A stretch of 64,000 nt of DNA, taken from Datisca glomerata. Taxonomy: Eukaryota > Streptophyta > Magnoliopsida > Cucurbitales > Datiscaceae. Under the pieces are notes generated by a model that was not told where the DNA came from, did not search any database, and saw nothing but the letters and a program-made list of their open reading frames with translations. Within the stretch, counting starts at the first letter, position 1, and every line of letters starts with the position of its first letter. Below, one piece after another: positions 11,961-62,819 of this stretch. The stretch spans positions 434,001-498,000 of the forward strand of contig QANY01005401.1 in assembly GCA_003255025.1 (NCBI GenBank). Direction: 5' to 3'. The position numbers were made by a program, and so were the translations under genes.

Positions 11961-11974
11961 ACGGACGCCGTTCT

Positions 11975-26090: not shown

Positions 26091-26593
26091 TTCTTGTCTC
26101 TCTCACTCCTTCCACCCCCACACACTCTCTCTCTAACCCACAAAAGGCACAGAAAAAAGAAAACCCAGTTTTCATTTTAGTAAGATAGAGAGAGAAAGAG
26201 AGTACTTTTTAGCTTCTAGAGAGAGAGAGTTGGGGTTTGGTTGTCTTAATTAATTGAGGTTTTGTGTACAGAGAGGTGCAGTTACCATGGCGGCGTTGCA
26301 GGGCTCTTATTCTGTGCCATAATTGCATCGAACCACGAAAACCCCCTTATTATTCAATCTCTAAACCCCCAAAAAAATCAAACAAAAACTAAACCCATCT
26401 TCCTTTTCTCCTCCTTTTTTGCAATTTTACCTTAAAATTGCAAAAAACACACACCCAGAAGCTCACATAATTAAAAAAAAACCACAAAAAAGACTGGAAA
26501 GAAAGTTCTAGAAGAACTTGGGATAGGGGAAATTCTTGATATGGATAGTCAGTCTAAAGTGGTGTTAGTTTCAGAAATTAGGTCGTCAAAGAA
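26091..26593 (+). promoter_or_regulatory. Probable 5' leader of the SRS gene with CT/GA tracts
   Basis: CT-rich runs (26,095-26,133) and GA-rich runs (gagagagaaagagagt, 26,187-26,202, and gagagagagagtt, 26,218-26,230) precede the start codon. CT-rich initiator regions and GAGA-type tracts are common around plant transcription starts. The long leader contains two upstream ORFs, listed separately. The transcription start cannot be placed exactly from sequence alone. Confidence 0.5.
26287..26322 (+). promoter_or_regulatory. Upstream ORF 1 in the SRS leader (11 codons)
   Basis: ATG at 26,287 in the strong context ACCATGG opens 11 codons that end with TAA at 26,320-26,322, about 270 bp before the main start. 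If it is in the transcript, scanning ribosomes should often start here and need to reinitiate. Confidence 0.5.
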
Positions 26594-26615
26594 ATGGCTG
26601 GTTTCTTCTATCTAA
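26541..26615 (+). promoter_or_regulatory. Upstream ORF 2, overlapping the SRS start codon
   Basis: ATG at 26,541 (context gatATGG, +4 G) opens 24 codons ending with TAA at 26,613-26,615. It is out of frame with the main ATG at 26,594 and overlaps it by 22 nt. Ribosomes that translate it would pass the main start, so it should lower SRS protein output. Confidence 0.5.
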
Positions 26616-39875: not shown

Positions 39876-40257
39876 TACATTTCTACTTTTGACTAATTAA
39901 AGTAAAAGGACAAACGGTTGCCTAATTATTTGACAACTAATACAATAATTGTAGAAAAGACAAATTACAAAGATTTCTTGATAATTGTAATCTTAGACTT
40001 TGCGTCTTTATTAATACTTTACCATGATTATTGTCTTCGAAAAAGTCAATGTGACTATTACTGTATATTGGAGTCCTTGATAATTGCAATCTTGAATTCT
40101 TGTGCTTTGATTACATTTTTAGAGAAGTCATAATTGTTTATCTTGATAGTTATCATGACTGTTTGCATTGTGTTGAAGAGTCATCAAGACATATCTTCAA
40201 ATTGCTTGATTATTTGATTTTAACATTGGAATTTTGCCAAATGTAGATAATTTTCAT

Positions 40258-41640
40258 TTATTCATCTTCATCGAGATTAATACTATCAAATGGGTCATGT
40301 GAGTCTTGGCAGGCATCATAGGCCCACTGTGGTAAGACGCGACCTTGTAATTTATTTTTATCCTTCAATTGTTGAGGGAAGGCTTTGGATGATTGGCCTT
40401 TCTGGATATTTAGTTTAATTGGGTGATTTGACTCTATGGATGATTCAGAGTCAGAATTTTTATTGCTTTCTAGGAGGATAAGCATTTTTTAGATTAATCA
40501 TGGCTTCAATTTGGATTTTGATTTTGTAGTCTTGAATTTTCCCTTTGAAGAGAATTTTGATTTGGGTTTGGATTCTTTGGATGAACTAGATAATTTAGTT
40601 TGTGGATCTGGATTAATAGGCTTATTAATTTTAATGGAGCCAGAGGAGAAGGATTGGCCAATTTTAATTGAGGGTATATATTTGCAAATTCAAATATTGA
40701 TAGAGGCCATTATTTTTAGGTATTGAATTTATTCGACCATTTAACATAATACTGTCTGGTGATGATTTCTTCTTCAATTGGATATTGCCATTCTAAGATC
40801 CAAGGTAATTTGTACTTATTTGTCAAGCAGAGTAATTGGGGGAAAGATGCCCCTATTGATGAGGGTTTGTATACTTTTAGAAACAAGTTAAAAAATTGTT
40901 GAAAATCATTTGAAAATAATTCTAAGACATGGTCAAGGATTGACCACCATCTTATGAACTATTTTAGAAAATTAATTTTGAAATTTTTATTGAAATTCAA
41001 AAATAGTGAATGGGAAAAATCACTATTTTGATGTAGGAAAATCATGTGTCAAGTATCAATATAGTCAAAATAATTATATTATTTTTTATTTAAAAGATAT
41101 TTAAACATGAAAGATGGATTTTTCATTATTCGATGGTTATAATTTTAAGAATGTAGAAGGAATGATAGAGATTTTTTCCTTCAGAATTTTTTATTTAGAT
41201 AATATTAACAGATTTTGTTTTTCAGAGAATGTCTCTATAAAAACCAAGACTTTTGTCCTTGTGATCAGGGACAAAGTGAAAATCTGAAAGAAAATAAGAT
41301 TTGGCTATTTTAGCAGGATCTTTCAAATGAGCAAATGTGGCTCAATATGAAATATATTTTTGCTGAGAATTTTTCTGAAATATGAGGATGATTTTTTTAT
41401 ATTTTGTAATTGATCGATTGACTAAATATACATCAAAAGATTTAGTAATTGAGAATGAGTCAAATTGGTTGAACATATCTGATTGGAATATGAGTCTAGT
41501 TGATCTAAGTATTGTTAATTGGGTTTGTATGAGAGTAGAAGACTCATCTTTAATTTGGACCTTATGGGCCCATTGTGAAGTCGAAGACTCCCATTTGATT
41601 TCAGGTTTTGAGGCATGGAGCCTAGACCCCATTTTGACGA
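40258..41640 (-). pseudogene. Polyprotein C-terminal region, copy A
   Basis: This lies downstream of RNase H. The last open piece (40,258-40,485) ends with PQWAYDACQDSHDPFDSINL, then an acidic end and TAA. The same ending occurs in copy B (47,434-47,520). The part nearest to RNase H (41,400-41,640) is a Ser/Gln-rich linker found in both copies. No enzyme motif was recognised in the tail, and its role is unknown to me. Confidence 0.65.
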
Positions 41641-41865
41641 TCATGCACGAATTCACGAGTAACGAAGCCAGAAATTGAATTATTAATGCTTTGAGTAAAT
41701 TTAATATAAAAAGTATTAAGATTGGACTATCATCGAGCAAAAATTTGTTTAGAAGCAATATTTTTAACATATTTTTTAAAACATGTTTTGTAGATTTACA
41801 ATCAATTTTCAAAAGAAATTTTTTATTTAGTAAGTCCTTGAAATTTTTGTATACATAATACAATA
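41641..41865 (-). pseudogene. RNase H domain remnant, copy A
   Basis: A segment at about 41,800 reads FLLKIDCKSTKHVLK, corresponding to the caulimovirid RNase H block (F-x-x-x-x-D-C-K-S-A-x-x-x-L). The end near 41,670-41,640 reads SGFVTREFVHD, the usual SREF/TREF end of the domain. In a live virus RNase H removes the RNA template after minus-strand DNA synthesis. The remnant is short, so part of the domain is missing or unreadable. Confidence 0.7.
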
Positions 41866-41899
41866 GATAAAATGCCTCTCTTAACTGTACTATAATTTA

Positions 41900-42760
41900 T
41901 TTATGATTTAGTCCAAGTTTCAGATGTGAATCTAACAATTTACTTTGGAGATTCTAGAAAAATAATTTAAATTTACTTGCAGAGATAATTAAACCATTTT
42001 ACTTTATTATCCTAACAAATAATTCAAGGTGTTTCCAATGTTGATATATTGATTTAGAGAAAATAATAACATCATCAATATAAACAATTGGGAAATGAGT
42101 AAATTGATTAAATATTTTATTCAATATATTCTTAAATTAACTTGGAGTATTTTTAAGACCAAAATGCTTTACATTTCATTCGTAATGGCCAAATGGAGTT
42201 ACAAATGCAATTTTGTATTTATCATTTTCATTTATGGATTTGTCAGAATTCAGATTTCATGACAAACTTAGAGAATACAACATCTCCAAGTCTGTTGATT
42301 AAGTCCCTTTTTATTTGGTATTGGATATCTTATCAATTCCAGGACATTGTTAAGGAGCTTATAATTAATTACTAATCAAGGGACTCCTCGTTCAATTTTG
42401 TTGGCCTTTTGGACATAAAAGGCCGAGCAAGACAAGGAGATTTGCTCATTCTAATAATATTCTTATCGAGAAGTTATGCAATTTCCTTCTTACAAAACTC
42501 AAGTATTTCAGAAATCATCTGAATTGGTTGTGTCTTTGTTGGGATATTATTTTGATCAAATCTCTTAATGTAAGAAAGACTGATAGTATGGTACTTCCTG
42601 TACAAGAAAGCATTGGGAATGTCAGCACATAATTTTTTACAAATTTTTTGTCCAAAGATTTTAATTTGTTTTTTAGGAGTAGAATTTTGAAGTTGTTCTT
42701 CAATTGTTTTGAATTTCATTTTGTCTTGCAAAAAATATAATTATTTTTCTTTACAAGAAA
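41900..42760 (-). pseudogene. Reverse transcriptase remnant, copy A
   Basis: The catalytic-site segment VYIDDVIIFSKSINQHWKHL is intact at about 42,083-42,020. Upstream at 42,205-42,130 is the YKIAFVTPFGHYE-type block and the FGLKNTPS-type block that follows it. Still further upstream is a TRSPLIS-like piece near 42,390. These are the ordered RT blocks of Caulimoviridae. Frameshifts and stops separate them. The protein would copy pregenomic RNA into DNA in the cytoplasm. Confidence 0.85.
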
Positions 42761-42959
42761 TTAACGTTATAGTTTTAAAAATAGAATTTTGTTTAAAATT
42801 TTTTAATTTCACATTGTGAGAAAGGAAAATAAATTTGAATTTGATAGGTTTATCCATAAGATAAGTAATAATCTCATCATGTTCTGCTGTGAAAGGATAC
42901 AACAGAGAAATAAATGATAAACTAAAAATAATTTTGTATGTCATATTTTTTACTTAGAC

Positions 42960-43170
42960 AAATTGTGTTTTAAAATATATATTGTCCTGGCAAATATGAA
43001 CCTTGAAGATTTCATAATTGATATGCATTCTAGTACCATTGGTAGATGACAATGATTCTTTTGTCTTATTGAAATACTTGGTAGGAACGAGTCATTCCTA
43101 CATATAATTCAAATAAGTTCATGAATTAATAAGAGCCATTGAAGTGATCAAATTCTTGAATTGTGGTTCT
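42960..43170 (-). pseudogene. Aspartic protease remnant, copy A
   Basis: The active-site region reads MALINS at about 43,138-43,121. A D-S/T-G triplet is expected; the catalytic Asp codon is AAT (Asn) here. The flanking sequence is collinear with the copy B protease. The enzyme would have cut the polyprotein. Confidence 0.6.
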
Positions 43171-43570
43171 GACCATTATGCATCATTTCTTAATTTTGAT
43201 GTGATTAAGGATTTGAATGAAGTTATCATCATCTCAATTGTTGACAACAAGTTCTTCAACCTCATTATCAGAAATTGAGGGTTTACTAGGTTCTCCTAGT
43301 TCAATGGTTTCATGATTTTTAATTAGATCTCTATTTTTAAAAGATTTGATTCTTTTGTTATTTTTGTGTTTGAATCTTTTAATTCTTTTATTTCAATTTT
43401 AATATTTTTATTTCTTTTTGAAGTTCTTGTTATGTAACTTCTCTTTCCTTTCCTTTAAGTTTGTTGAATTTTTCAAGAGTTTGTGAAAGACTTGCAATAT
43501 TATTATTAGGCTTAGTATTTTTAATTTTTTGAATTACGTTCCTAAGTCTTTCAAGGTATTCTTGTTTTAA

Positions 43571-44990
43571 TTAAGGATTTTCAATTTTACTAAATAAATC
43601 TAAAAATAGATTTTCTTGTTCTTCATTTTTATTTAAGACATTATCAATTTTTTTACAACAGATATCCATGTATCCCATATAGATGTTAGTAGAATCACTG
43701 TCAGAACTTGAAAAGTTTGATTTATTAGATTTAGAGGATTCAAGTTCTCCTAAATATTCATTACTACTTTCATAGTAATCAATTGTTTCTATTATTCTAA
43801 GCAATTATTGTTTATCTTCTTTAGAGAGTTTTAAGTGATTAATTTTATTTTTGACATGGTAAGTGTTGGAAAAATGATCATTCAGACCATATTTAAAACA
43901 CTTAATTTTACTTTTATCAACAAATTTTTTATTGAATAATTTTTTTCTTAGAAAAGTATTTGTCAAAATTTTTGTTTTTATTTTGTGCAATTTTTCCTAT
44001 AAGATTTATAAATTCTTTTAAGATTTAGATGATAATATTTCTTATCTTTTTTGGAATGAGCAATAGAAGGTAGTCATATCACCAATAGAAATTGCCTAAT
44101 TCGTATTTGGCAGTTTTTTATTCTTTTTTTTAATTTGTTTGTTAATTTTCATATTTATACACATTCTTAGACCTTCTGTTTGGATTGTAGTGATAATTGT
44201 ACCATATGTAAGACTATTATAGTCTATATTTTCTAGGTCATCACTAAGGACTGCTCTAATTTTTTGGAGTAAAAAAAATTGGTAAGCCATTCATAAGTTT
44301 TCTTTCCAAAAGAGTTGATTACTATCATCCATAGACATTACTCTAGGCAAAAATATATTTTATACCAGTCAAAATCACTTAGGGCAGGACACCTAAGATT
44401 GGTTAATTGATCATGGATACGCAAAATAACATTGTTTGGCATCCAATGAAATATTCAATTATTGTGTAGAAGAGTGTATTAATGGCATCATACATAGTTT
44501 CATGATACTCTCCAAGGATTATGGTTCCTTCAGTATCAATTTTTATTGCCGTAAGGATGATATTTTTATATTCTTCAATGAAATATTTTTCCCACCAGGA
44601 ATGAAGCATTTCTGTGAATCATGTGACTAAAAGCTTTATTACCTCATTGTGAGGAAAATTTTGTTTGGTAATGTAACTGTTGGTTGTAATTTATTGAGGA
44701 CATCCAGTTCTAAAAGACCATCAATATTCCATTCATATAATTTTTCTGCAGAGACAGAAAATTGTTTAACTAAAGTAGATTTAGTAATTTGCATATCTGG
44801 AGGAATATGCATTTTATGCATTTTATTTCCAGTTTATTAATTTGTAAATGTTTTTAAAAAAATTCTTCAATATTGTGAATGTTTGAAGATTCATGAATTA
44901 TCGATGATTCATAGGTGGAATATGACCTATGACTTTCTTAGTGTAATTTAGTTGTTTAACAAATTTTTATTGGGTTCTTCTTTATTTGAA
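43571..44990 (-). pseudogene. Coat protein remnant with zinc knuckle, copy A
   Basis: Open pieces at 44,639-44,821, 44,403-44,609 and 44,096-44,290 contain motifs shared with copies B and D (LYEWNIDGL, NIDYNSLTYGTI, EGLRMCINMKINKQIKK). They lead to a knuckle at 43,900-43,859 reading CFKYGLNDHFSNTY. Against C-x2-C-x4-H-x4-C, the second and fourth ligands have become Tyr. An acidic Ser/Asp segment follows (43,571-43,804), as in caulimovirid coat proteins. The capsid would package viral DNA. Confidence 0.8.
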
Positions 44991-44999
44991 ATCTTAAAA

Positions 45000-45640
45000 G
45001 GAGATGTAGTGATTAAAATTATTTTATGATTAATTATAATTTTTCTAGATGGGAGAGGCTAGCAGACACCACACTGGAGTATTCTTTGACCCATTTGGTC
45101 TTGAAAATTAGTTTAATATTCTTTTTTTTAAATATCCTAGATATAATCAAGGAAAAACATACCAACTCTACATTCTTGCATGAACGTCTTCCATTCAGTA
45201 ATGATGATTTTTCTTTTATCTATATTATATGTCTCTCTAAACCTATTGCGTCTATTAAGATTGATTGGATCATTCATGTGTTGGGTTAAACCCTCCCAAT
45301 TAGACTTGTATTCTTGGTTTTGGGTGTCTATATACAAAACTAAGAGTTGGCGATTGACAGGAGGTAAGACTCCTTAGAAATCAGATTCATTTGGTGATTC
45401 AACTTCATCAGATTGTTCAGTCTTATTATCAAATATTGGTTGACTAACTTGAAAATTTGTGGTTATGCCTTTAACTTTTAACTTTTTCATTTTTTAATTT
45501 TTTTAGTTCTTATTCTAATTGATGTATTCTAAGATCTTGACTATTATTGACAAGTGATTCTGGGAAGAAACTTCTAGGAGTGCTAGACTGGTAAACTCCC
45601 TAATTATAGTATTAGAACTGGAAGATTATAAATTAATTTT
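45000..45640 (-). pseudogene. Linker between movement and coat proteins, copy A
   Basis: An open piece at 45,137-45,337 contains EGLTQHMNDP and NRRNRFRETYNIDKRKIIIT, conserved with copies B, C and D. It is part of the polyprotein between movement and coat protein domains. No named domain was recognised. Confidence 0.7.
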
Positions 45641-45649
45641 AACAGTACC

Positions 45650-46446
45650 ATTCATGCACTGCTGGATATAATCAATATCTTCAATTGGGCGCTGAATTGG
45701 AATGAGTTGGCTTTCATTGGTTAAAATTTAATTTGTAGGTAAGTAATATCAGACTACCTGATGGTTTTAGGGACTCTAATATTTTCATTACTTTGGCTAG
45801 ATTGAATCAAAATGGTTTGATTTTTTGGACTCCTATTGATGGCTTGGAAATTCATATTGGTTTTGATTATTTTGTAATGTATTCTAAAAATCAAAGCTAG
45901 GGGTTGGGCACCTTTAAGAATTTGATAACCACTAGTTTTTATATTCAAAGTTAAATATTTAAGAATATGTGGGAATGTTAGACTAAGAGATTAATCTGCC
46001 AAACAATCAAAATGGATTGGACCATTACAAGGTGAAGATTCAATTAATCCTAATATACTAGCATTAAAATTTGTAAATCTTACATCACGCAAGACTAACA
46101 AGATAGAGTTATCAAGGTCTCTTCTTGTAAGTGGTTTAATTCTAATCTTTACTAAACCAAAGTGAAGGAGAAATTATATCCTTCTTCAATGTGATGTTTA
46201 ATTACATTAGGAGAAATTAATTGACAAGTTTCATCCTCTTTCCCAAGTGCATATATTTTATTTTGACATGATGCTGAGGTTTGAAGAAAGCAACAAACCA
46301 TGTTGATTTTGGGTATATTCCTTACCATATGATCTACTTGGTCATCTGCTAAGTATTAAAAATGTTCTTCATTAATTACGTCTTGTATTGTATTTATTGT
46401 AAACATATTGCTACAAGAAAAATTACTTCTAAATAATTTACTCATG
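45650..46446 (-). pseudogene. Movement protein remnant (30K superfamily), copy A
   Basis: The region is collinear with the movement protein of copy C. The clearest open part is 45,754-45,948, with IKTSGYQILKGAQPLALIFR, a segment conserved in all four copies. Upstream parts carry many frameshifts. The movement protein forms tubules at plasmodesmata for cell-to-cell spread. Confidence 0.75.
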
Positions 46447-46796
46447 ACTCAAGATAACTAAATTATGCTTGTGATTAAAAATACCATCATGTATTTTGAT
46501 TATCAAACATGTTATGTCTTCTACAACCTCCTATGAAGTTGACTTTTCTCTCATTTACCTCTGAAGCAAACCTAATAGAAACTGATGCGTCATATTCACA
46601 GATTAGAAAATTAAATATTATAGAAAAATAATCAAGCTAAAAAGAACCAGCCACTTGGGTAGTGAGTCAGATTAAATAAAAATAATTATTCAAAGAAGCA
46701 AGTAAGCAACAATAGCAACAATATACCAGCCACATGGAAAGTGAAGAATAATAATTAATCACATTAATTAAAAATAGTAAGTACCCTACCATGTTA

Positions 46797-46809
46797 GGCT
46801 CTGATACCA
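46797..46809 (-). promoter_or_regulatory. tRNA-Met primer-binding site, copy A
   Basis: The minus strand reads TGGTATCAGAGCC, complementary to the 3' end of initiator tRNA-Met, the standard Caulimoviridae primer site. It is intact here, whereas copies C and D have TGGTATCAAAGCC. Confidence 0.9.
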
Positions 46810-47080
46810 AAAGAGGCAGACTTGTGTATGAATTATGTATTTACGGACTAGGTATTAGAAGAAAGAATTCACAATAATTTTATTGTGAGAAAATAAAACT
46901 TACATATATTGAAAATTATTTTACAACAATAATTAGTGCTCCCGCTCACTAATTAATGTTGAAGGAGAAGAAGAAAGATTATAAAAGATGAGGAAGAATA
47001 ATGCTTTGTTTTCAAAACAAGTGTTCTCTCGAAATTAAGAGTAGAAAACCAGTTTTGAGAAATAAATGGGAGAGGCCAAC

Positions 47081-47090: not shown

Positions 47091-47433
47091 GCAAGAAAAG
47101 TAGAGTTCATCAAGAACTCATCACTTACCTACACTATTCTTTTCCATAAAAGTAAAAACATTTTATATTTTCACTTTTGATTAATTAAAGTAAAATGATG
47201 AATACTTACCTAATTATTTGACAACTAGTACAATAATTACAATAAAAAAGATAAATTAAAAAGATCACTCGATAATTGTTATCTTAGACTTCGTGTCTTC
47301 ATTATTACTTTAGTTGGGGAAGCCATAATTGTTGTCTTAAAAACTTATTGTGACTATTGTTGTATATTGCAATTTCTTGATTTCTTGATTTTTTTTCACC
47401 AATGGCATTTTGCTAAAAGTAAATTATTTTTAT

Positions 47434-48729
47434 CTATTCATCATCACTTAGATTAATGTCATCAAACGGGTCTTGAGAATCTTGACATGCGTTATAGGCC
47501 CATTGTGGTGGGACGCGACCTTCTGTGTATTTTGGTCCTTCAATTGTTGAAGGCAACTTTTCTGGATGATTGAGCTTTTTGGATATTTGGCTTAATTAGG
47601 TGACTTGACTCTACAGATGATTCTGGGTTAGAACTATTATTGTCTTCTAAAAGGAGAAGCATGTTTGGCCTCTGATTTTCCCTTTGAAAATGGTTTGGAT
47701 TCTTTGGATGAATTTAAACTGGATGGTTTATTTTGTGGATTTGAGTTAATGAGCTCATTAATTTTTAACGGAGCCTGGTTAAATAGATTTTTTGTCAATT
47801 TTAATTGAGGTTGATTATTTGCAAATTTCCGGTTAATGGAGGCAATGATTTTTTGGGTATTGAATTTATCCCACCATTTAACATATTACTATTTGGTGAG
47901 AATTTCATCTACAATTGAGTGTTGCATTTTTAAAATCTAGGGTGTCTTGTATCTATTTGTAAAGTAGAGTAATTGGAAAAAGAAAACTCTATTGATGAGG
48001 GTTTGTATATTTTAGAAATAAATTAAAAATTTGTTAAAAATCAATTGAAAATAATTCTAAGACAGGGTCATGGATTGACCACCATCTTAAGAACCATTTG
48101 GAAAAATTATTTTGAAATCTTTATCAAAATGTAAAAACCACGAGTGGAAAAATTCACTATTTTGATGCAGAAAAATCATATGTCAAGCATCAATATAGTC
48201 AAAATAATTATATTATTTTTTATTTAAAAATATTTTGAAAGCTGAAGGATGAACTTTCCAATCCTCCATGCTTATGATTCTAAGAATGTAGAAGGAATGA
48301 TAAAGGATCTTTCCTTCAGAACTTTTGATTGGGCTAATATTTATGAATTTTGTTTTAAGAGAATTTTTCTATAGAAACAAAGATTTTTGTCCTTGTGTCC
48401 AGGGACATAAAAGAATTTAGGAATGAAATGGGTTCTGGTAATTTGGGTAAGATCTTTCAAATGAGTAAATTGAGGCTCAATATGAAAGAGATTTTTACTG
48501 GAGATTTTTCTGAAATAAGATGATGAATTTTGATATTTTGTAATTGGACATAAAAGGGTTAAGTAATTGAGAAGGGGTCAAATTGGTTGACTAGGGCTGA
48601 TTGGTAATTGGGTCTGATGGGCCCAAGTATTGTTAGTTGAGCTTGGTTATGAGTAGAATACTCATATTTGATTTGGGCCTTAAGGGCCAATTGTGGAGTC
48701 GAAGACTCTTCTATAATCGAATCATTCAT
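47434..48729 (-). pseudogene. Polyprotein C-terminal region, copy B
   Basis: After the AlkB-like domain the same frame continues with SSTPQLALKAQIKYEYSTHN and LTILGPIRPNYQ (48,700-48,580), matching copy A at 41,590-41,490. It then decays. The end (47,520-47,434) reads PPQWAYNACQDSQDPFDDIN, then an acidic end and TAG. No enzymatic motif was recognised. Confidence 0.65.
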
Positions 48730-49170
48730 CAACCTCACATGATTTCTGAAAGTAATATTGATTCTTTTAGTTAAGGACTCTACAGCATGCTTATCGCTTT
48801 TTTGAAATCCGTTAGTCATGATGAAGAAAGTTCATTCCAGTATAAAAAACTTTTTGACTGTTTTGTCTGTAAATTCAATTTTAAAATTGCTTGTCCCAAT
48901 AGGTTTATACATGTCATCATAATACATTATCTTTGTGAAAACCTATTTTTCTACCTTTCTAATACCATTGAAATAAGGTTACGTTGAAGTCATGCTTCAA
49001 CCCAACTTCTTCCAAAATGTTATCTAATTCATCAATCCATGCATTCTTGGAAATTCAAATCCATTATGGTCATAATTAATGAATGAGAATTTTGAGCAAA
49101 AGGTTGAAGCCCTACCATTGAACTTCTTGATCTCAAATTCCTCCATGACAGAATTTTGAACTGATTTTCT
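48730..49170 (-). pseudogene. AlkB-like 2OG-Fe(II) dioxygenase domain in pararetroviral polyprotein
   Basis: Directly after the RNase H end (LIPDFFSREFI, 49,203-49,171), a domain follows in three frames. In order it shows an FNVTLFQWY-like piece, a stop, then KGRKIGFHKDN (H 48,937-48,935, D 48,931-48,929), which is the N-x-x-L-x-x-Y-x-x-G-x-x-I-x-x-H-x-D block of AlkB. Next, in another frame, come IGTSNFKIEFTDKTVKKFF, one stop, FFIMTNGFQKSDKHAVESL (H 48,789-48,787) and RINITFR (48,765-48,745). The last matches E. coli AlkB RYNLTFR in position and spacing. Thus the HxD...H iron triad and the Arg that binds 2-oxoglutarate are all recognisable. AlkB proteins demethylate nucleic acids; plant RNA-virus versions are thought to act on viral RNA. 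Frameshifts and two stops make this copy inactive. A chance match is unlikely because three motifs occur in order and spacing. Confidence 0.78.
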
Positions 49171-49420
49171 GATAAATTCACGAGAAAAGAAGTCAGGAAT
49201 TAAATTATTAATATCTTGAATAAATTAAATATTGAAATAAAAAATGTTAAAAATAGACTATTACCTGGTAAAACTTTGTTTGGAAGCAGTGTCAAAACAT
49301 GTTTTGCAGATTTGCAATCCATTTTTAAAAGAAATTTTTTATTGAATAGATTTTGAAATTTTTTATTAAATTGTATGATTCGATTAATTGTTTTAATAAT
49401 GAAAGGATAGATTTCAAATC
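49171..49420 (-). pseudogene. RNase H domain remnant, copy B
   Basis: The piece FLLKMDCKSAKHVL (about 49,340-49,300) matches the caulimovirid D-C-K-S-A-K block. The domain ends with LIPDFFSREFI at 49,203-49,171, the usual SREF end. Frames in between are shifted. Confidence 0.75.
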
Positions 49421-49873
49421 CTAAAAATCTAATCTTAGATTGAAAATTCATTTTTTCTTGCAGAGTTAGATAACTATTTTATTTTATTATCTTGGTAAAC
49501 AATTCAAAGTGTTTCTAGTATTATTTAATTAATTTAGAGAAAATAAGAATATTACTAATGCAAATAATCAAGAAATCAGTGAATTGCTTGAACATTTCAT
49601 TCATTGTATTTGGAACATTTTTAAGATCAAATAGCATTACGAACGATCAAATGCAATTTTGTATTAATCAATCCCATTTGTCTGGATCTACTGAAATGTA
49701 TTAGGAATGTCACTACACAATTTTTTACAAATATTCTTTCTAAAGCTTTAAATTTGGTTTTGAAGAGTAGAACTTTGAAACTATTCTTCAACTTTTGAAT
49801 TTTATTTTATCTTGTAAAAAATATAATTGTTCTTCTTTAAGAAATTAAATTCACAAATTTTTAAATAGAATTT
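49421..49873 (-). pseudogene. Reverse transcriptase remnant with internal deletion, copy B
   Basis: This is collinear with copy A except that the fingers region equivalent to about 42,215-42,590 is missing (junction near 49,680-49,705). The catalytic YIDD segment is destroyed: the equivalent of copy A's VYIDDVIIF (49,573-49,540) has lost both Asp residues. The enzyme cannot have worked after these changes. Confidence 0.75.
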
Positions 49874-50012
49874 GGTATCCTTTCTGGCTATACAGAAGGG
49901 CGGAATGGATCATAAATCAAAGGGTGGAAATTTCCTCCAATCGGAAGACTTGCTTTTCCATAGGGATTGTATACCCGGATTAATCATTTCACGGGAAAGA
50001 ACACGAGGGATG
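49874..50012. other. Foreign 139-bp insert in copy B
   Basis: Compared with copy A (about 42,796-42,818), 23 bp of AT-rich viral sequence are replaced by 139 bp of clearly higher GC. The insert has an open plus-strand frame of over 40 codons (with KGGMDHKSKGGNFLQSEDLL), antisense to the virus. The composition and codon style would fit an organelle-derived piece, but I could not identify the gene. No terminal repeats are visible. Confidence 0.55.
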
Positions 50013-50099
50013 AGTGAGAAAAAGAAATGAATTTGATTTTGACAAGTTTATCCACGGGATAATTAATTATCTCATCATGCTCTGTTGTAAAAGGATGCA

Positions 50100-50420
50100 A
50101 CAGAGATATGAATTGTTAAACCCAAAATAATTTTGCCTGTCATATTTTTTACTAAGACAAATGATGTTTTAAAACATATATTGTCTTGGCAAATATGAAT
50201 TTTAGGGATTTCATGATTGATATGCATTTTAGTACCATTTGCAGAGGATAAAGATTATATTGTCTTCTTGAAGTACTTCGTAGGAATGAATCCTTCCTGC
50301 AAACAATTTAAACTAGCTCTTGAATCAATAAGAATCATTGAAATGAAATCAAAATCTTGGATTATTATTCTTATCATTGTGCCATTCTTTTTATTTTGAT
50401 ATGATTAATGATTTGGATAA
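50100..50420 (-). pseudogene. Aspartic protease remnant, copy B
   Basis: The active site reads LIDSRASLNCLQEGFIPTKY at about 50,332-50,273. D-S-G is expected and Gly has become Arg (AGA), so the Asp is kept but the turn is lost. The downstream frame matches copy A. The enzyme would have released polyprotein products. Confidence 0.75.
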
Positions 50421-50929
50421 AGTTACCATCATCTTGATTGTTGACAATATTTTCTTCAACCTCATATCACAAATTGGAGATTTACTAAGTTCTCTTAGTT
50501 CACTCGATTCATGACTTTTAATTAAATTTTTTATTTTTAATAAAATTTAATTCTTTTGTTATTTCTATGTTTAAATCTTTTAAATCTCTTATTTCATTTT
50601 TAATATTTTTATTTCTTTTTGAAGTTCTTTTAAAATAACTTCTTTTTCATTTTATTTATCTTTGTTGAATTTTTCAAGAATTTGTGAAAAACTTGCAGTA
50701 TTATTATTAGACTTAGTATTTCTTTTCAGTATTATCATTCAAGGTATTTTTATTTTAATTCAGGATTTTCAATTTTATTAACTAAATCTAATAAAAGATT
50801 TTCTTGTCCTTCATTTTTATTTAAAACACTACTAACTTTCAGACAATAGTTATCCTTACATCCCATAGAGATGTTTGGAGAATCACTATCAAAGCTTGAA
50901 GAACTTAATTCATCAGATTCAGAGGATTC

Positions 50930-52180
50930 AAATTCTTCTAAATCTTCATTACTACTTTCATTTTAATATATTGATTATATAATTCTAAACAATTCTTATT
51001 TTTCTTCATCGAAGAATTTTAATTGATTAATTTTATTTTTTTACTTAACAAGTGTTGGAAAATGACAATTTTGATCACTTAATTTTACTTTTATAAAAAA
51101 ATACTATTGAATTTTTTTCTTGAATAATTTTTATTCTTAGAGAAGTACTTGTCAAGATTTTAATTTTTATGTTTGTGGTATTCTCCTATAAGGGTTGTAA
51201 ACTCTTTTAGGATTAAAATGAGATTTTTTCCTATTCTTTTGGGATGGGGCAATAGCAGTTAATTCATATTGCTCACAGAAATTGTCTAATTTGTATTTGA
51301 TTGTTTTCTTTCCCTTTTTAATTTATTTATTAATTTTTATGTCTATGCACATTCTTAGACCTTCTTTTTGTATTGTAGTGATAATTGTACCATAGGTTAG
51401 ACTATTGTAGTCTATATTTCCTAGGTCATCACTAAGGATTGTTCTAATTTTATGGGCAAACAAATTTGGTAAGCCACTGATGATTTTTTCTTTTTAAAAG
51501 AGTTGATTGCTATCATCCCTAGACATTACTATGGACAAAAATATATTTTTGTACTGGTCAAAATCACTTAGGGTAGGTCACCTAAGATTGGTTAATTTGT
51601 CATGGATGCGCGAAGTAACATTACTTGGCGTTCCAATAAAATGTTCAATTATTATGTAGAAGAGTGTATTAATGGTATCAGACATTGTTTCATGATCCTC
51701 TCCAAGGATTGGGGTTACTTTAGTATTAATCTTTATTGCTGTAAGGATGGTATTTTTAGATTATTCAGTGAGATGTTTTTTCACCAGGAATGAAGCATTC
51801 CTATGAATTCTGTGACTAAAAGCTTTATTATCTTATTGTGAGATTAATTGTGTGTGGTAATGTAATCGTTGGCTACTATATCATTGTGCTGTAATTTGTT
51901 GAGAACTTTCTGTTCTGAAAGACTATTAATATTTCATTCAAATAATTTTTCTACAGAGACATAAAAATTGATTAACTAAAAAAGATTTAGTAATTTAAAT
52001 ATCTAGAGGAATAGGCCTCTTGTGCCCCTTCCTTTCCAGTTTATTAATTTCTAATGTTTTAAATTTTTCTTCAATATTGTGAATGTTTGAAGATTCATGG
52101 ATTATGGATGATTCAAGGTGGAATCTAATCTATGACTTTCTGATTCAGAACTACTATATTGGTTAATTACCTTAACAAAA
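50930..52180 (-). pseudogene. Coat protein remnant, copy B
   Basis: Pieces collinear with copies A and D lie in order. They include NIDYNSLTYGTI-like and LRMCIDIKINK-like segments near 51,410-51,330, and an acidic SNEDLEEFESSESDE-like stretch near 50,965-50,900. The zinc knuckle region (about 51,075-51,035) is damaged by deletions and keeps no full CCHC set. Confidence 0.7.
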
Positions 52181-52439
52181 GAATATAACTCAACAAGTTT
52201 ATTCTTTAATTATTGATGTATTTTATCAATCTTTTTATTGAGGGGAACAATATTAAGGTAGTTTTATCTTAAAGACTTAATAAAGAAGTTTCTTTCAGAG
52301 ATTTGTTAGACTTAGGTTCATGAAGATCATCAACCTTATTTTTAATTTTATCTAATTATTTTTTTATTGTTATTAAACTTTGATTAGTGTAATTTAGTTG
52401 TTTAACAACCTTTTATTTGGTTCTTCTTCCTTCGTAAAC

Positions 52440-53682
52440 TTAAATGGAGAAGCAATGATTAAAGAATTTTTGTGATTAATCATAATTTTTCAGGTGGAGG
52501 ATGGCTAGCAATCACGCAACTGAAGTCTTCCTTGAGCCATTGTGTCTTAGAATTAACTTTAATATTCTTTTCATAAATATTTTTTGATATAATCAAAGAA
52601 AAATATATCAACTCTAAATTCTTGTATGAACGCATTCCATTCAGCAAAGATAATTTTTCTTAGATTCACATTGTATGTCTCTTTGAATCTATTTTATCTA
52701 TTGAGATTGGTTAGGTCATTCATGTGTTTGGTTAAACCCTCCCAATCAGGCTTGTATTATTGGTTTAGGGTACCTAAATTTAAAAATAAAAGTTGGGTAT
52801 TGACAAGAGGTAAGGCTCCTTTGAAATCAGATTCAGTTGATGATTCAATTTCTTCAGATTGTTCATTCTTATTATCAAAGATTGACTCACTGACTTGAGA
52901 ATTTGTGGTTATGCCTTTATGTCTTAATTTTTTTATTTTTTATTTTTAATTCTTGTTCCAATTTATGGATTCTAAGATCTTGATTATTATTGACAGTGGA
53001 TTCAAAAACGAAATTCTTATGAGTGTTAGAGAGGCTAAACTTCATAATCTAAGGATTCGAAGCGGAAGATTAAAAATTAATTTTAACAGTACCATCCATA
53101 TACTGCTGGATATAATCATCTTCGATTGGGCGTTGAATTGGAGTTGCTTGGCTTTCATTGGTTAAAAGTCAATTTGTAGGTAAAATAATATCAGACCACT
53201 TAATGATTTTAGAGACTCCAATATTAGCATTACTTTGGCTAGATTGAATCAACATGATTTTGATTTTTTGGACTCCTATTGATGGCTTGGAAATTCATAT
53301 TGGTTTTGGTTACTTTGTAATGTATCCTAAAAATCAAAGCTAGGAGTTAGGCATCTTCAAGGATTTGGTAAGCACTAGTTTTGATATCCAAAGTTAAAGA
53401 TTTAAGAATATGGGGATATGCTAGACTAACAGACAAATATGAAAAATAATCAAAATGGATTGGACCATTACAAAGTGAGGATTCAATTAATCCTAAAATA
53501 CTACCGTTAAAATTTGTAAATCTTGTATCTCATAAGGCTAACAAGACAGAGGTATTTAGGCATCTATTTGTGAGTGGTTTAACTCCAATCTGGACTAAAC
53601 CAAAGTGAAGGAAATTATATCCTTCTCCAATATGATCTTTAATTGCATTAGAAGAAAGTAATTGACAAATTTCATTCTCTTT
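52440..53682 (-). pseudogene. Movement protein (5'-truncated) and linker, copy B
   Basis: From 53,682 down to about 53,160 the sequence is collinear with the movement protein of copy A. At 52,920-52,480 it matches the linker with its EGLTKHMNDLTN-like and RFKETYNVN-like pieces. The N-terminal part of the movement protein is missing because the copy ends at the inverted junction with copy C. Confidence 0.7.
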
Positions 53683-53767
53683 ATTTTCCTTCAATAAAAT
53701 CATTGTGAATTCTTGCTTATGATACCATGTCTTTAGATACTCAAAATATATGCAATACTTCCTCTTT

Positions 53768-53780
53768 TGGTATCAAAGCC
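53768..53780 (+). promoter_or_regulatory. tRNA-Met primer-binding site, copy C
   Basis: TGGTATCAAAGCC differs from the intact copy A site by one G-to-A change. Confidence 0.85.
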
Positions 53781-53989
53781 AAACCTAGTAAGGTATTTTA
53801 TTGCTTAAATTAATACTTGCATAATTATTGCTATTCACCGCCCAAGTGGCTAGTTATTATTATTATAGTTTCTTAATTTTTTGAATAATTATTTTTATTT
53901 AATTTGACTCTCCACCCAAGTGACTGGTTATTTTTGTGCTTGATTATTTCTCTATAATCTTTGATTTTTTAATCTCTGAATCTGATAAA

Positions 53990-54950
53990 TCAATTTCTAA
54001 TGGGTTTACTTCAGGCACCCCAATAAGATCTCTTAGATACGTAAATCACGAGGGCATGGTAGTTGTAGAGGCAAAGGGGAAAAGAATGATTTCTTAGGAG
54101 GTTGTAGAACTTATAACAGGTTTGAGATCAAAATACATGATGAAATTGTTAATCATAATAATAATTTAGTTATCTTGAGTCATGAATAGATTATTAGAAG
54201 TAATTCTTCTAGTAGAAATAAGTCAATAATAAATACAATACCAGACATAATTAATGAAGAATATTTTGAATACTTAGCAGATGATCAAGTAGATCATAAG
54301 ATATTGAATATACCTAAAATCCCTAGTAAAGAAATTTATAAATCAACATGGTCTGTCGCTTCCTTCAAGTCTCAACATCATGTAAAAATAATTGAAAATA
54401 TATATACTCTTGGGAAAGAGCATGAAACCTGTCAATTACATTCTTCTAATACAATTAAACATCACATTGAAGAAGGATATAATTTCCCCCACTTAGGTTT
54501 AGTCCAGATTGAAGTTAAACCACTCACAAGGAGAGATCTTAATATCTATGTCTTGTTAGCCTTATGTGATGCAAGATTCACAAATTCTAATGATAGTATT
54601 TTAGGATTAGTTGAATCCTCACTTTTAATAGTCCAATCCATTTTGATTATTTTTCAAATTTGTCTATTAGTCTAAAAGACCCCCATATTCTTAAATCTTT
54701 AACTTTGAATATCAAACTAGTGGTACCAAATCCTTAAAGGTACCCAACCCTAGCTTTGATTTTTAGAATACATTATAAAGTAACCAAAACCAATATGAAT
54801 TTCTGAGTCATCAATAAGAGTCTAAAAATCAAACCCTGTTGATTCAATCTAGCCAAAGAAATACAAATATTAAAGCCCTTAAAATCATTAGGTGGTCTAA
54901 TATTACTTTGCCTACAAATTAGTTTTTAACCAATGAAAGTAAACCCACAC
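53990..54950 (+). pseudogene. Movement protein remnant (30K superfamily), copy C
   Basis: The longest open part (54,304-54,675) contains STWSVASFKSQHHVKIIENI, then LGKEHETCQL, GLVQIEVKPL and LLALCDARFTNSNDSILGL. The Asp in the L-x-D-x-R segment matches the conserved D of 30K movement proteins. After a frameshift the second half reads through 54,700-54,930 in pieces (QPLALIF-type). The protein would modify plasmodesmata. One frameshift near 54,660 and others downstream inactivate it. Confidence 0.82.
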
Positions 54951-55890
54951 CCCAATTCAATGCACAATTGAAGATATTGATTATATCCAGCAGTACATGG
55001 ATGGTACTGTTAAAATTAATTTCCAATCTTCATGTTCTAATCCTAAAATTAAGGAGTTTAGTAAGCCTAACACTCCTAGAAGTTCCTTTTCTGAATCCAC
55101 TGTCAATAATAGTCAAGATCAGAATCCATCAATTGGAACAAAAAAATACAAAATAAAAAAATAAAAAACCTTAAAACTTAAAGGCATAGTCACAAATTCT
55201 CAATTCAGCCTGTCAATCTTTGATAATAAAATTGAACAATCTGACGGAGCTGAATCACCAACTGAATCTGATTTTCCAAGGAGTTTTACCTTTTATCAAT
55301 CCCCAACTCTTAGTTTTGAATGTAGGCACCCTTAGCCAAGAATACAAGCTTGATTGGGAGGGTTTAACCCAACACATGAATGACCTAACCAATCCAAATA
55401 GACGCAATAGGTTCAGAGAGACATATAATATATATAAAATAAATCTTCATTGCTGAATGGAAGACGTTCATGCAAGAATTTAGAGTTGATATGTTTTTTC
55501 TTGATTATATCAAAGATATTTATGAAAAGAATATTACAGTAATTTTCAAGACCAAGTGGGTCAAGAAAGACTCCAGTGTGGTGTCTGCTAGTTGTCCCCC
55601 ACCTAAAAAATTATAATTAATCATTAAAAAATTAATCACTACTTCTCCTTTTAAGATTTTAAAGGAAGAAGAACCCAATAAAAAGTTTTTGAACAACTTA
55701 ATTACACTAATCAAAGTTTAATAACAATAGAAAAATAATTAAATAAAATTAAAAACAAGGTTGATGATATTCATGAACCTAAACCTAATGAATCTCTAAA
55801 AGATGCTCATTTAATAAATCTTTCAGATAAAATTACTTTAAATATTATTCCTCTCAATGAAAAGATTAATAAAATGCTTCATGAATTGAA
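54951..55890 (+). pseudogene. Linker and coat protein N-terminal remnant, copy C
   Basis: An open piece at 55,220-55,456 includes EYKLDWEGLTQHMNDL and NRRNRFRETYNIYK, conserved in all copies. A second piece (55,450-55,610) has FMQEFRVDMFFLDYI and KDSSVVSAS. The region 55,640-55,890 is Lys/Glu/Asn-rich and helical in style, as in copy D at 62,820-63,060. Homology ends near 55,890. Confidence 0.7.
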
Positions 55891-58800
55891 GGAGATTTCA
55901 AAAACAAAATCTTGATTGAAGCCCTTAACGGACGCCATGCAACTCGAAATCCCGAAAATCTCTCAAGGTTCTATTTTTCTGGTATAATGGGAATTGAAGT
56001 TCAAAACATTGCCCAATAAAGACGGCCCATCATATTCCATGAGTTTTTCTTGGTTTTTAATTTATTAGTAGTAATATACATGTGTTACGCACAAAATATG
56101 TGTAGAATTAAAAAGTAACTGCACCAAATAGACATGTTTTGAAAACTGAGTTAAGAGATATCATGTTTTTCAATTTTTTAGGTAAAAAACAATTTTTTGT
56201 CACCACATCATCAAACCAGTTGCTAATGATTTCAAATTGATGATTTTACTCTTCGTTTGATAGATTCTATTATCTGATTTGTGGGGTTATTTCACCTAAT
56301 GAGATATCATTATTTTAGAAAATTTTGGGTTATCATTAATATATATTATTTTTAATTTAAATTAATTTTTTATTTTTTATTAACTTTTTTAGTGAATTCG
56401 GTTATGGAAATTATCTTTTTCATAACCGAATAATTGTCATCTGAATTTTCAGTGTTGTTTTAGTAATATTTCAATATATGATATAATGTACGAGAATAAA
56501 ACTATGATTTGCAATGATATATCACTTATTTACATATGATTTACTATGATATATTGACCGAGATTTTCTAGAGTTTTTTTTTTCTTTTTTATGATTGATT
56601 GATATTTTAGGTTAGTTATTATTTATCATAATTAATTAAGTAGTAGTTTCCATAACAATAGTTTTTTATTTACTTTTCTAATTATTTCATTAAACTTTGA
56701 TTGGTTGAATTCAAAATGAAATATGTTATCAATTAATGTATTTTAGGGAAGTTAATATTGCATCTATTTTTAAGGTGAGGGCGCAATTTGCTAGTTTTTA
56801 AATTTTCGTTAAAAATGTTAATTACCGTTTATGGAAATCATAATTATACAGTTAAAGCATTAATATATGCCATAGTTGAGTCAAGTGTATCACTTATTTA
56901 CTTATAATCACTATGACGACTGTACATAACATGCATTATATATTAATTTATTAGAATTTTTGAATTTAGTTCATTGATCGAATTACAACTAATTTGTTAT
57001 TGATTTTTTATCGATTTAATTTGATTTCCTTTTAAGATTTTTTATTTAGTGTTTAATTGATTGATGTAGTTAAAAAGTAGCGGTTAAGATGGAAATTAAA
57101 GGGCTCCCAAAAATAGATAAGAAAAGTAACGGTTTAGATCTTGATTACAGTTTAAATCCATTGATAACTACTGCTTTCTTATTTGTAGGGTATATCAATT
57201 AAGTCTATCAGATTTATATATCTGAGTTATCTGAAAATATAGGTAGTATGTTATTTATAGATGAGGGGTAGATTTATCTAAAATTATTGACTATTTAGGA
57301 AACTTGCTATTTACTTAATTATATTGAAAGCCTGATATTTCTTAAAACACCCCATAATATTGTCGATTATGCAAAATTTCCCAAAATTAAAATATATTTC
57401 ACTTTGTAAACTTAAAACAATATTTTTAAATAAAAAATTCAACACGGGTTGGAATAAATAGTAAGTTAGTATAAAAAAGTACTATTTAAAAGGAAGTTAA
57501 AAGTATAAAAACCCAAAAAAAACAATAAGATAAAAAAGGATGATACAAAAAAGTTAGATCATTATATTGTTTATTTCCTACAAATTATGAGTCACACAAT
57601 ATATCAACAAATTTTGAATGTGTAATACATATAACCTTATTAATAGAGAAAATATCGTAATTTAAATATTAAAGATCATAAAATAGTACTTATTATCTAC
57701 CCCAATATTGAGATTTTTCTAACCGAGTTTTTCTTTTTTTGCATTCCCCTGCGGTATTTGCTCCTTTTCCCTAACAAAGAAAATATGCATTGAAAGAGTT
57801 TACTCTCATTTAGTGTCATTTTATCGTAAATTTCATAAAACAATTGTCTATAATATATTTCGGTTTGAGACTTTTAAATTTTCTCATTTATGATTATAAT
57901 TAATAATTTATTTTTTTATATTAGGTATTCTTGTCTTGCAACAGTACAATTATAAAATTCATTCTAATACATTTCTTGCTTTTAATTATATTATAATTTG
58001 TCTTCTAAGTAACTTTTCGATTCAACTATAACTTGTATATTGCATATACTAATAACTATTTATAATCCTACAACAATACATGTAAAATCTTAAAAGTAGT
58101 CATACATTTTTCATATATTGTTAAACAGTATATATGTAGCTCTTAATTTACTCGTATACGATTTTTTTACAACTACAATACCATTGAAAGTTTTTCTTTG
58201 AAGACAGTTGAGTTATATTTTAAATGATGTATCCATGTATCCATGCCCAACTCTTGTAAAGCAAGTATTATAAATATATTTTATCTATTTTAATTAAAAG
58301 TATCACATTATAATTCTATTAAACTATGAAATATTACTTTATTACTATTAATTTATCACAATACTCTTATACCCAATCAACTACCAATTATTTGAGATTT
58401 TCGTATATCCCCGTTAAAATTTTCTTAAACTTAAAGTATGTTTTAATATAATTAAGGTGATACTTATAGCTAATGAATATTAATAATACTAAAAGCTTAC
58501 ATCGGTTTATATTCTTTACATAAACTTATTTTATGAAAATTTTGGCAACAAAAGAGCGGTTATTTCAATTAAATTTAATGTTTAAAATATTTAGTGGAGT
58601 AATAACATTTTAATTATAATAAATACGGACATATAATTAAATAATAAATAAAAAAAATTATTTATTTAATCTATTAAATACATTTTGACATTTCTAAATA
58701 TTGAATATAGACACATGGCGCGAAGAGTGATCCCCATACTCAATTATATATATATAAAGGATTATAATAATTAAAAGTCTGAAAACATGTTAAAAGTAAT

Positions 58801-60900: not shown

Positions 60901-60935
60901 TTTTTGGTATCTTGCTTACAAAAGTTCACCTCTTT

Positions 60936-60948
60936 TGGTATCAAAGCC
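60936..60948 (+). promoter_or_regulatory. tRNA-Met primer-binding site, copy D
   Basis: TGGTATCAAAGCC has the same single G-to-A change as copy C. The shared change suggests C and D descend from one viral lineage, distinct from that of copy A. Confidence 0.85.
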
Positions 60949-61169
60949 AAATTTGATAAGGTATATTACTGTTTAAATACTTTTTAATACTGCATCATTA
61001 TTGTTCTTCTCTGCCCAAGTGGCTAGTTATTATTGCTATTGTTGCTTAATTGCTTACTTGAATAAGTATTTTATTTAATATGTATCTCCGCCCAAGTGAC
61101 TGGTTATTTTTATGTTTGATTATTTCTCTATAACCTTTGATTTTCAAATCTGTGAATCTGGTGTATCAC

Positions 61170-62107
61170 TTTCTATTAGGTTTACTTCAGGCATCCTAAG
61201 AAGGCCTATTAGATGCATAAATTCTGAGGGCAAGTTAGCTGTAGGGGCAAACAGGAGAATATTGACTTCATAGGAGGTTGTAGACGTCATGGCACATTTG
61301 AAAATCAAAATACATGATGAAATTTTTAATAATAAGAATAATTTAGTTATTTTAAGTAATGAATAGACTATTTAAAGGCCATTCTTCTTGTAGCAATATG
61401 TTTACAATGAATACAATACCAGACATAATTAATGAAGAACATGTTGAATACTTAGGAGATGGTCATGTAGATCATAGGGTATGAAATATATCCAAAATCC
61501 TTAGTAAAGAAAATTATAAATCAACATGGTTTGTTGCTTCCTTCAAACCTCAACATCATGTAAAAATAATTGAAAAAAAAATATATGCTCTTGAGAAAGA
61601 GCATAAAACTTGTCAATTACTTTCTCCTAATAGAATTAAACATCACATTCAAGAATAATATAATTTCTTTCAATTTCATTTAGTCCAGATTGAAGTTAAA
61701 CCACTCACAAAAGGAGGCCTTAATAGCTCTGTTTTGTTAGTCATACGTGATGCAAGATTTATAAATTTTAATGATAATATTTAGGATTAATTGAATCTTC
61801 ACTTTGTAATAGTCTAATCCAATTTAATTATTTTTTGGATTTTTCTGTTAGTTTAACAGGCTCACAAATTCTTAAATCCTCAACCTTGAATATCAAAACT
61901 AGTGGTTACCAAATCTTTGAAGGTATCCAACCCCTAGCTTTGATTTTTAGAATTCATTACAAACTCACAAAAATCAAAATAAATTTCCAAGCCATCAACA
62001 AGAGTCCAAAAACTCAAATCATGTTGACTCAATCTAGCCAAAGTAATGCTTCTATTATAGTCCCTAAAATCATTAGATGGCCTGATATTACTTTACCTAC
62101 AAATTGA
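61170..62107 (+). pseudogene. Movement protein remnant (30K superfamily), copy D
   Basis: It is collinear with copy C. The first half has pieces matching STWFVASFKPQHHVKIIE and VKPLTKGGLNSSVLL with frameshifts. The second half (61,835-62,107) is open and contains NIKTSGYQIFEGIQPLALIF and LTQSSQSNASIIVPKIIRW. It ends with the PDITLPTN segment shared by all copies. Confidence 0.8.
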
Positions 62108-62307
62108 CTTTTAACCAATGAAAGCCAACCCACTCTAATTCAACACCCAATTGAAGATTCCAACAAATCATGGATGATAATGTTAAAATTAATTTCCAAT
62201 CTTCCAGTTCTAATTCTTAAATTAAGGAGTTAAGCTATTCTAGCACTTCTAGAAATTTCTTTTCTGAATCCAATGTAATTAATAGTCAAGATCTTTGAAT
62301 CCACCAA

Positions 62308-62811
62308 TTGGAACAAGAATCAAAAAGTTTAAAAATAGAAAAGTTAAGACTTAAAGGCACAGTCATAAATTCTCAAGTCTGTCAGCCAATCTTTGATAAT
62401 AAGACAGAACAATCTGGCGAATCTGAATCACCAACTGCCTCTAATTTTCAAGGAGCCTTACCTCCTGTTAATCCTCAACTTTTAGTTTTGAATTTAGACA
62501 CCTTAAACCAATAATACAAACCTGATTGGGAGGGTTTAACCGAACACATGAATGACTCAGTCAATTTTAATAGATGTAATAGGTTTAGAGAGACATACAA
62601 TATGCATCAAAGAAAAATTATATTTGCTGAATGGAAGGCGTTCAAGCAAGAATTTAGAGGTGATATATTTTTCCTTGATTATATCGAGGATAATGACAAA
62701 AAGAATATTAAAGTAATTTCTAAGATCAAACGGATAAAGGAAGACTCCAGTTGGCTGACTGTTAGCCATCCCCTACCTGAGAAAATTATAATAATAATGA
62801 AATTTATTTAA
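62308..62811 (+). pseudogene. Linker region of the polyprotein, copy D
   Basis: Two open pieces (62,308-62,514 and 62,548-62,811) carry SPTASNFQGALPPVNPQLLV and NRCNRFRETYNMHQRKIIF, then EWKAFKQEFRGDIFFLDYIE. They are conserved in the other three copies. The region lies between movement and coat protein; no named domain was recognised. Confidence 0.72.
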
Positions 62812-62819
62812 TCACTGCT

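Follow-up and report, generated by a model that had tools for sequence, protein, structure and literature searches.

Does a plant pararetrovirus carry an AlkB-type demethylase? The question is raised by a window of 64,000 nucleotides (nt) of Datisca glomerata DNA, the whole stretch analysed here (QANY01005401.1, contig C527 in the 678-Mb assembly, G000). Self-comparison reveals four related elements, copies A-D, all in the right third of the window. In one of them, copy B (47363..53760, minus strand), a first-pass annotation had placed the set of AlkB motifs, in the correct order, between the end of RNase H and the C-terminal tail. AlkB enzymes depend on Fe(II) and 2-oxoglutarate (2OG) and take methyl groups off RNA or DNA by oxidation. 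We conclude that the segment is probably a decayed AlkB-type domain of an ancestral florendovirus-like caulimovirid with two main genome types, one with reverse transcriptase (RT) and without AlkB, the other without RT and with AlkB. Copy B is a caulimovirid element of the latter type.

The AlkB-type domain and its relatives

The Fe(II)/2OG dioxygenase domain of copy B occupies 48745..49128 on the minus strand, and its three motifs are indeed where they had been reported: GFHKD at 48929-48943, KHAVES at 48775-48792, and RINITFR at 48745-48765. The domain is decayed. The frame of GFHKD differs from that of KHAVES and RINITFR, and frame breaks and in-frame stops separate the motifs in 48745-48943. 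An open piece at 48562-48831, in which the end of AlkB and the downstream tail share one open frame, matched PF03171 (2OG-FeII_Oxy) with E=9.5e-4 and 19.9 bits, below the 23-bit cut-off; seven other pieces scanned alongside it had no match to a 2OG family. Comparison of the pieces of the broken domain with NCBIfam, PHROGs and PDB yielded nothing relevant, and a search for homologous proteins with two window pieces found none. Pfam matches to Bacillus_HBL and S-antigen in 49203-49478 were below cut-off and were taken as chance, as were the phage tblastn matches of one piece, mainly to portal proteins.

To what extent could such motifs arise by chance? In a shuffle control, the published order HxD..H..RxxxxxR appeared in 206 of 20,000 shuffles of the segment, and its second half alone in 2,497; the full pattern occurs 63 times in the six-frame translation of the window. 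A tighter form, H..R.[NS].[ST]FR, was found together with HxD in none of the 20,000 shuffles (without HxD, in two) and once in the window, at the domain of copy B. Evidence from the window alone is suggestive of AlkB; the decisive support comes from relatives in the same genome.

A search of the assembly with the AlkB profile PF13532 (2OG-FeII_Oxy_2), in which 150 out of 427 candidates were scored, gave at least 129 matches at E≤1e-3, host genes among them. Among the first 68 rows, eight host-gene-like loci (L122-L126, L128, L129, L135) were set aside by eye, and the other 60, taken as virus-like AlkB loci, were fetched in the order of PF13532 score. All 60 match the domain, 57 of them as one alignment of more than 120 residues. 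They also all match 48745-49128 in DNA, the best-scoring six with 79-81% identity and the lowest with 74%. The viral surroundings recur with the domain: adjoining RT-end/RNase H sequence is present in 50 of these loci, the protease side in 52, and the downstream tail in 59. Two copies, L131 and L132, are naturally unbroken and match PF13532 at 3.2e-10 and 3.6e-10. The scores of this pair, 40.8 and 41.0 bits, exceed the cut-off of 31.2, and the pair also matches PF03171, with E-values of 4.4e-8 and 1.6e-8. The proposal that the domain is of AlkB type, and that it belonged to the ancestral virus, had been made dependent on a significant profile match and on the domain being more than a single-copy insert with boundaries. 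While the window piece stays under its cut-off, the two unbroken copies are well over theirs, and the recurrence of the domain in many copies bears out its presence in the ancestor.

In a pairwise BLAST alignment, HKD, the distal H and both R of RxxxxxR coincide between the domain and the AlkB protein of E. coli, and 23 of 98 residues are identical; the phmmer alignment with the same protein scores 6.8 bits and ends before the R motif. Annotated phage AlkB genes gave weak tblastn matches, the best with E=1e-3. The unbroken domain had no match among PDB sequences at E≤1, and scans of viral contigs with the window piece and with the unbroken domain found no relative. In a primer-site pattern scan covering at least 120 contigs, long frames with a YxDD-like motif occurred in at least four, and none of those listed also had an SRE motif.

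If a host or RNA-virus AlkB fragment had landed by chance in one integrated copy, the segment would be expected to be missing from other copies, and it is indeed not in copies A and D. However, this explanation is refuted by the recurrence of the domain in all 60 fetched loci and has practically no probability left. The selection seen in shared variants, described below, speaks against it as well. Moreover, the closest of the eight host-like loci is only 34% identical over 44 residues, and therefore the viral domain is not a recent copy of these genes.

The AlkB domains differ pairwise by ∼2% in the closest pair, 12% in the median and 32% in the widest, a part of this being decay after integration. 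Thus, the copies span a long time. Two loci on contig C202, L158 and L165, have in common an unusual lead upstream of the domain's open reading frame (ORF), which suggests duplication.

Position of the domain in the viral genome

The first-pass annotation had put the domain inside a polyprotein. The part of this claim that stands is its location between two viral regions on the minus strand: the RNase H end with an RT remnant (49174..49690, with SREF at 49174-49185, and RNase H identified by motif reading only) and the tail of ORF2 (47540..48744, the lower end being approximate), which is common to copies A and D and had no Pfam match at E≤1. The part that does not stand is membership in the RT-bearing polyprotein, as the domain begins a second ORF.

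Judged by a simple motif in 40 loci, the RNase H end lies in a frame different from that of AlkB in 21 cases, in the same frame in five and in the third frame in three, with 11 unclear. In 23 of the 40, the AlkB frame has its opening ATG 72-81 nt upstream. Of 41 sequences (the 40 loci and copy B), 30 contain ATGGAGGA, and in 29 of these 30 a stop of the polymerase frame begins 11 nt after the ATG, the start layout of copy B included (49129..49146, minus strand, comprising the ATG codon at 49144-49146 and a short lead). Since the RNase H end is mostly out of frame, and the ORF2 ATG and the polymerase stop overlap, the most plausible place of AlkB is at the N-terminus of a second ORF, one that overlaps ORF1 at its end. 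The same arrangement, with no AlkB, is found in copies A and D: the ORF1 stop lies over the ORF2 ATG (41590..41660, minus strand, in copy A, and likewise in copy D), and ORF2 runs directly into the tail.

The polyprotein reading, in which AlkB was joined with protease and RT, has some observations in its favor. Copy B can be read from SREF into the domain without a change of frame, in some loci one long open frame takes in the protease, AlkB and the tail (902 amino acids in L132), and the AlkB frame is open for at least 150 codons upstream in six of 40 loci, compared with two and two for the other frames. However, the in-frame join of copy B reflects a one-base length difference relative to the other copies and is a product of decay, and the long frames, which include the protease, have gutted or shifted RT and RNase H parts with no phase signal. 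Given these observations, the different frames and the overlap of stop and ATG, we consider this reading quite improbable, and AlkB inside an RT-bearing polyprotein is rejected. The long protease-AlkB frames fit the accessible text of PMC4241990, where the RT-less components of florendoviruses are described as having a single polyprotein, and a protease-AlkB fusion in the RT-less type is possible.

Selection and the two genome types

Was the domain of use to the virus? Copies A-D differ pairwise by ∼15-18% with no clear excess at third codon positions, which is what neutral decay after integration would give, and hence this locus alone cannot show selection. Among the relatives, variants present in at least six of 57 copies comprise 39 silent and 35 replacement changes, compared with 45 and 148 for singletons (Fisher p=7.5e-6). 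Lowering the threshold to four copies gives 53:58 for the shared variants (p=2.2e-5), and the first 40 copies agree in direction (30:31 shared against 44:118 singletons, p=0.0024). The silent fraction expected under neutrality is ∼26%, with an assumed transition weight of 4, and that of singletons is 26% in the 40 copies and 22% in the 57; the singletons thus look neutral, and so the ranking by score does not drive the result. By codon phase, shared variants are distributed as 35/29/65 in AlkB and 35/38/59 in the ORF2 tail (shared against singleton variants in the tail, p=0.010). The respective numbers for the stretch from the protease end to RNase H in the same copies are 115/121/131 (AlkB against this adjacent stretch, chi-square p=0.0098). 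Given the silent excess in shared variants and the neutral singletons, selection acted during viral replication: AlkB and the tail were under purifying selection while the virus replicated, before integration. The RT remnant of the AlkB copies has no codon-phase signal of constraint.

The state of RT differs between the window copies, too. Copy B lacks a sequence present in copy A at 42395..42653 (minus strand), which we take to be the RT fingers, partly on a motif and partly because of its position, just upstream of the RVT_1 match of copy D. The copy A piece itself had no RVT_1 match, and a Tag1_N match in 42477-42740, below cut-off, was taken as chance. The finger segment was found in none of the 60 AlkB loci (E≤0.01); in a protein search, the first 40 of these loci matched its upstream edge only, the longest match being that of L169. 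Of six AlkB loci compared with L227, described below, four (L149, L153, L154, L156) resume at almost the same position beyond the gap, and the other two (L145 and L178) have longer gaps. A reverse search with the segment, in which 40 out of 1078 candidates were scored, gave at least 40 matches. Their order was that of similarity to copy A, which lacks AlkB, and for 20 of these 40 we fetched 651 bases downstream. The AlkB-less junction was present in 16 of the 20, with a further small gap at the junction in L212; AlkB was present in one (L214), and neither in three (L211, L220, L225). An ORF2 start similar to that of copies A and D was recognised in eight of the 20. In these samples, AlkB is nearly confined to RT-deficient genomes, a regularity that the first-pass annotation had missed.

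Several points weigh against this picture. The wider context of L214 (L227, G000:C774:1146000-1149000) follows copy A without interruption as far as the end of RT, after which comes AlkB, and thus the split between RT and AlkB is not absolute, and an undivided ancestor or a recombinant existed. Both samples were ranked, one by PF13532 score and the other by similarity to copy A, so genomes with AlkB and a distant RT may be under-counted. Copies of the A type match C and D across the movement and coat regions, unlike the truncated component A of Vitis in the accessible text of PMC4241990. The 27-codon lead of ORF2 lacks an excess in the third phase (5/9/8), the numbers being too small to judge. 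Finally, the retention of catalytic residues (H in 57 of 57 copies, D in 55 of 57, the distal H in 57 of 57, the first R in 53 of 56 and the second in 49 of 54) is partly circular, since the sample was ranked by profile score.

The double-positive L227 speaks for a reading with no division of labor, in which the virus was undivided, with ORF1 and an AlkB-bearing ORF2, and the RT-less and AlkB-less forms were later deletion derivatives that were often endogenised. The overlapping stop and start in RT-less copies also fit descent from an RT-bearing genome. Still, AlkB copies are 2-32% apart and yet under selection, so that replication of the RT-less form seems to have gone on for a long time, which makes the undivided virus unlikely.

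Another reading is that the RT-less AlkB type was a helper-dependent satellite or defective genome which parasitised the AlkB-less virus, with AlkB serving the satellite. Copies A and D can be aligned over their movement/coat, protease, RT, RNase H and ORF2 regions. They seem to be complete without copy B, with an RVT_1 match in D and movement protein matches in C and D (none in the copy A piece scanned), and the RT remnant of AlkB copies drifts. As the RT-bearing type is not visibly truncated, the AlkB type may be a satellite. On the other hand, the AlkB type, too, has retained the ORF2 tail under constraint, and RT-less components of other florendoviruses are read as parts of bipartite genomes in the accessible text of PMC4241990. 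We regard a satellite as a possibility to be taken seriously, if not the probable one.

The probable reading, with two genome types that both served the virus, is as follows. AlkB was the N-terminal region of the ORF2 product, encoded right behind the polymerase, and may have been captured from an RNA virus or from a host. One main genome type had RT without AlkB (copies A and D), and the other had lost the RT fingers and carried AlkB (copy B and the 60 loci). Since the latter was apparently replicated without a complete RT of its own, the RT of the other type presumably did the copying, and the RT-less genome may in turn have supplied AlkB in trans. The retained H, D, H, R and R residues predict an active demethylase in the living virus. 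By analogy with plant RNA viruses and with a retroelement of Phalaenopsis, its most likely target would have been methyl marks on the pregenomic RNA of the virus, with m6A or m1A as the likeliest marks to be erased; alkyl damage in viral DNA would be a less likely target. That a separate RT-less genome carried the demethylase in trans, and that pressure from host methylation selected and maintained this eraser, we propose tentatively, giving it slightly less than an even chance.

Relation to known systems, and the surroundings of copy B

The elements have the features of Caulimoviridae, namely movement protein, protease, RT, RNase H (by motif only) and a primer site for tRNA-Met. The RVP profile matched with 2.2e-8, RVT_1 matched in copy D with 4.1e-12, and the movement protein profile PF01107 matched in copies C (1.4e-3) and D (2.4e-4), both below the cut-off; the piece of copy A that was scanned did not match PF01107. 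Matches to the tRNA-Met primer site were found at 46798-46809 (minus strand, exact) and at 53768-53779 and 60936-60947 (plus strand, one mismatch each). With at most two mismatches, there are eight such matches in the window compared with 2.4 expected. The tandem spacing of the elements, ∼7.2-7.4 kb, equals the genome length.

Copy A (40192..46900, minus strand) is an RT-bearing, AlkB-less element of the same virus as copy B. Copy C (53680..55900, plus strand) is partial, with the primer site, the movement protein and the coat region. It stands head to head with copy B near their primer-site ends (53680-53780), as a compound insertion. Copy D (60917..64000, plus strand) extends past the end of the window, and its continuation, L182, has RT and no AlkB.

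In the accessible text of PMC4241990 (Geering et al. 2014), florendoviruses have an ORF1 with movement protein, protease, RT and RNase H, an ORF2 in another frame without recognisable domains, a tRNA-Met primer site, and a genome of 7.2-8.5 kb; the unit here is ∼7.2 kb and has a similar layout. Vitis, Oryza and Sorghum are described there as having an RT-less component B, with a polyprotein that ends in an ORF2 homologue. Similarly, the RT-less type in D. glomerata has an ORF2-like C-terminal extension (RT segment in 0/60 loci, tail in 59/60), many copies, and compound insertions of both types. By the layout so described, the system resembles bipartite florendoviruses, and AlkB would be a new cargo of the RT-less genome. 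There are two differences: one genome type carries AlkB at the N-terminus of ORF2, and the RT-bearing type is not visibly truncated in the movement/coat region, unlike component A of Vitis in the same text.

Plant RNA viruses have AlkB domains (Bratlie and Drablos 2005, PMC544882) that likewise show HxD, H and RxxxxxR in this order, within a larger viral protein. As far as the accessible text goes, these domains reside in replicases of positive-strand viruses, whereas the virus considered here is a reverse-transcribing DNA virus, and the two are likened by motif order only. The Ty3/Gypsy element of Phalaenopsis with a 2-ODD/AlkB ORF (PMC9289625, accessible text) is another case of an AlkB-type domain retained by a plant retroelement, and its AlkB protein demethylates RNA in vitro. 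It is a long terminal repeat (LTR) retrotransposon, unlike the caulimovirid here.

With such a precedent, the elements could themselves be Ty3/Gypsy elements with AlkB. However, there are matches to the movement protein PF01107, though below the cut-off, tRNA-Met primer sites at the element starts, though LTR elements can use such sites too, and genome-length tandem spacing of ∼7.2 kb. In the self-comparison, the units are tandem and inverted, no search having been aimed at terminal repeats or integrase. The identity as an LTR retrotransposon was rejected, as very improbable.

The statement that no AlkB was known in Caulimoviridae agrees with our literature search, which covered titles and beginnings of abstracts of mostly open-access papers and a few preprints and found no report of AlkB in this family. 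So far, AlkB domains had been described in plant RNA viruses and in a single lineage of LTR elements; here, a selected AlkB is found in Caulimoviridae, which extends the erasing of methylation to a virus family that passes through RNA and nuclear DNA. The accessible text of PMC9289625 describes a screen of 121 angiosperms with RT as the marker, in which 423 consensuses were classed as endogenous Caulimoviridae and 2-ODD was seen only in Phalaenopsis, and that of PMC9719215 mentions lower sensitivity for component B. It is understandable, given an RT marker and this lower sensitivity, that such a domain could have escaped notice. Screens anchored in RT would tend to miss RT-less copies, and since surveys of this kind are biased against RT-less genomes, AlkB may be commoner in endogenous caulimovirids than recorded. 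The domain suggests a possible function for the RT-less genomes of bipartite florendoviruses, and offers a case in which to test directly if pararetroviruses are kept down by DNA methylation or by epitranscriptomic marks (m6A, m1A). If the proposed role is true, host methylation of viral RNA or DNA would be a pressure strong enough to select an eraser in these viruses.

Neighbouring contig stretches (L203-L206) contained no further copy at the thresholds used. In the window itself, an SH3_retrovirus domain at 39250-39897 (plus strand, 4.5e-10) marks a fragment of a retroelement polymerase adjoining copy A. Farther away, a plant gene of the DUF702 (SHI-related) family lies at 26582-28021 (plus strand) in two open pieces, with matches of 5e-32 and 7.4e-25, and identifies the window as plant DNA. 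The region 10381-15348 contains several families of tandem repeats with units of ∼55, 76, 155-179 and 237 nt, and the primer-site-like sequence TGGTATCAGAGC at 15221-15232 is within the 237-nt array. A direct repeat, 8054-8843 and 13253-14034, has its two copies ∼5.2 kb apart and consists of three blocks that are 88-90% identical, possibly LTRs.
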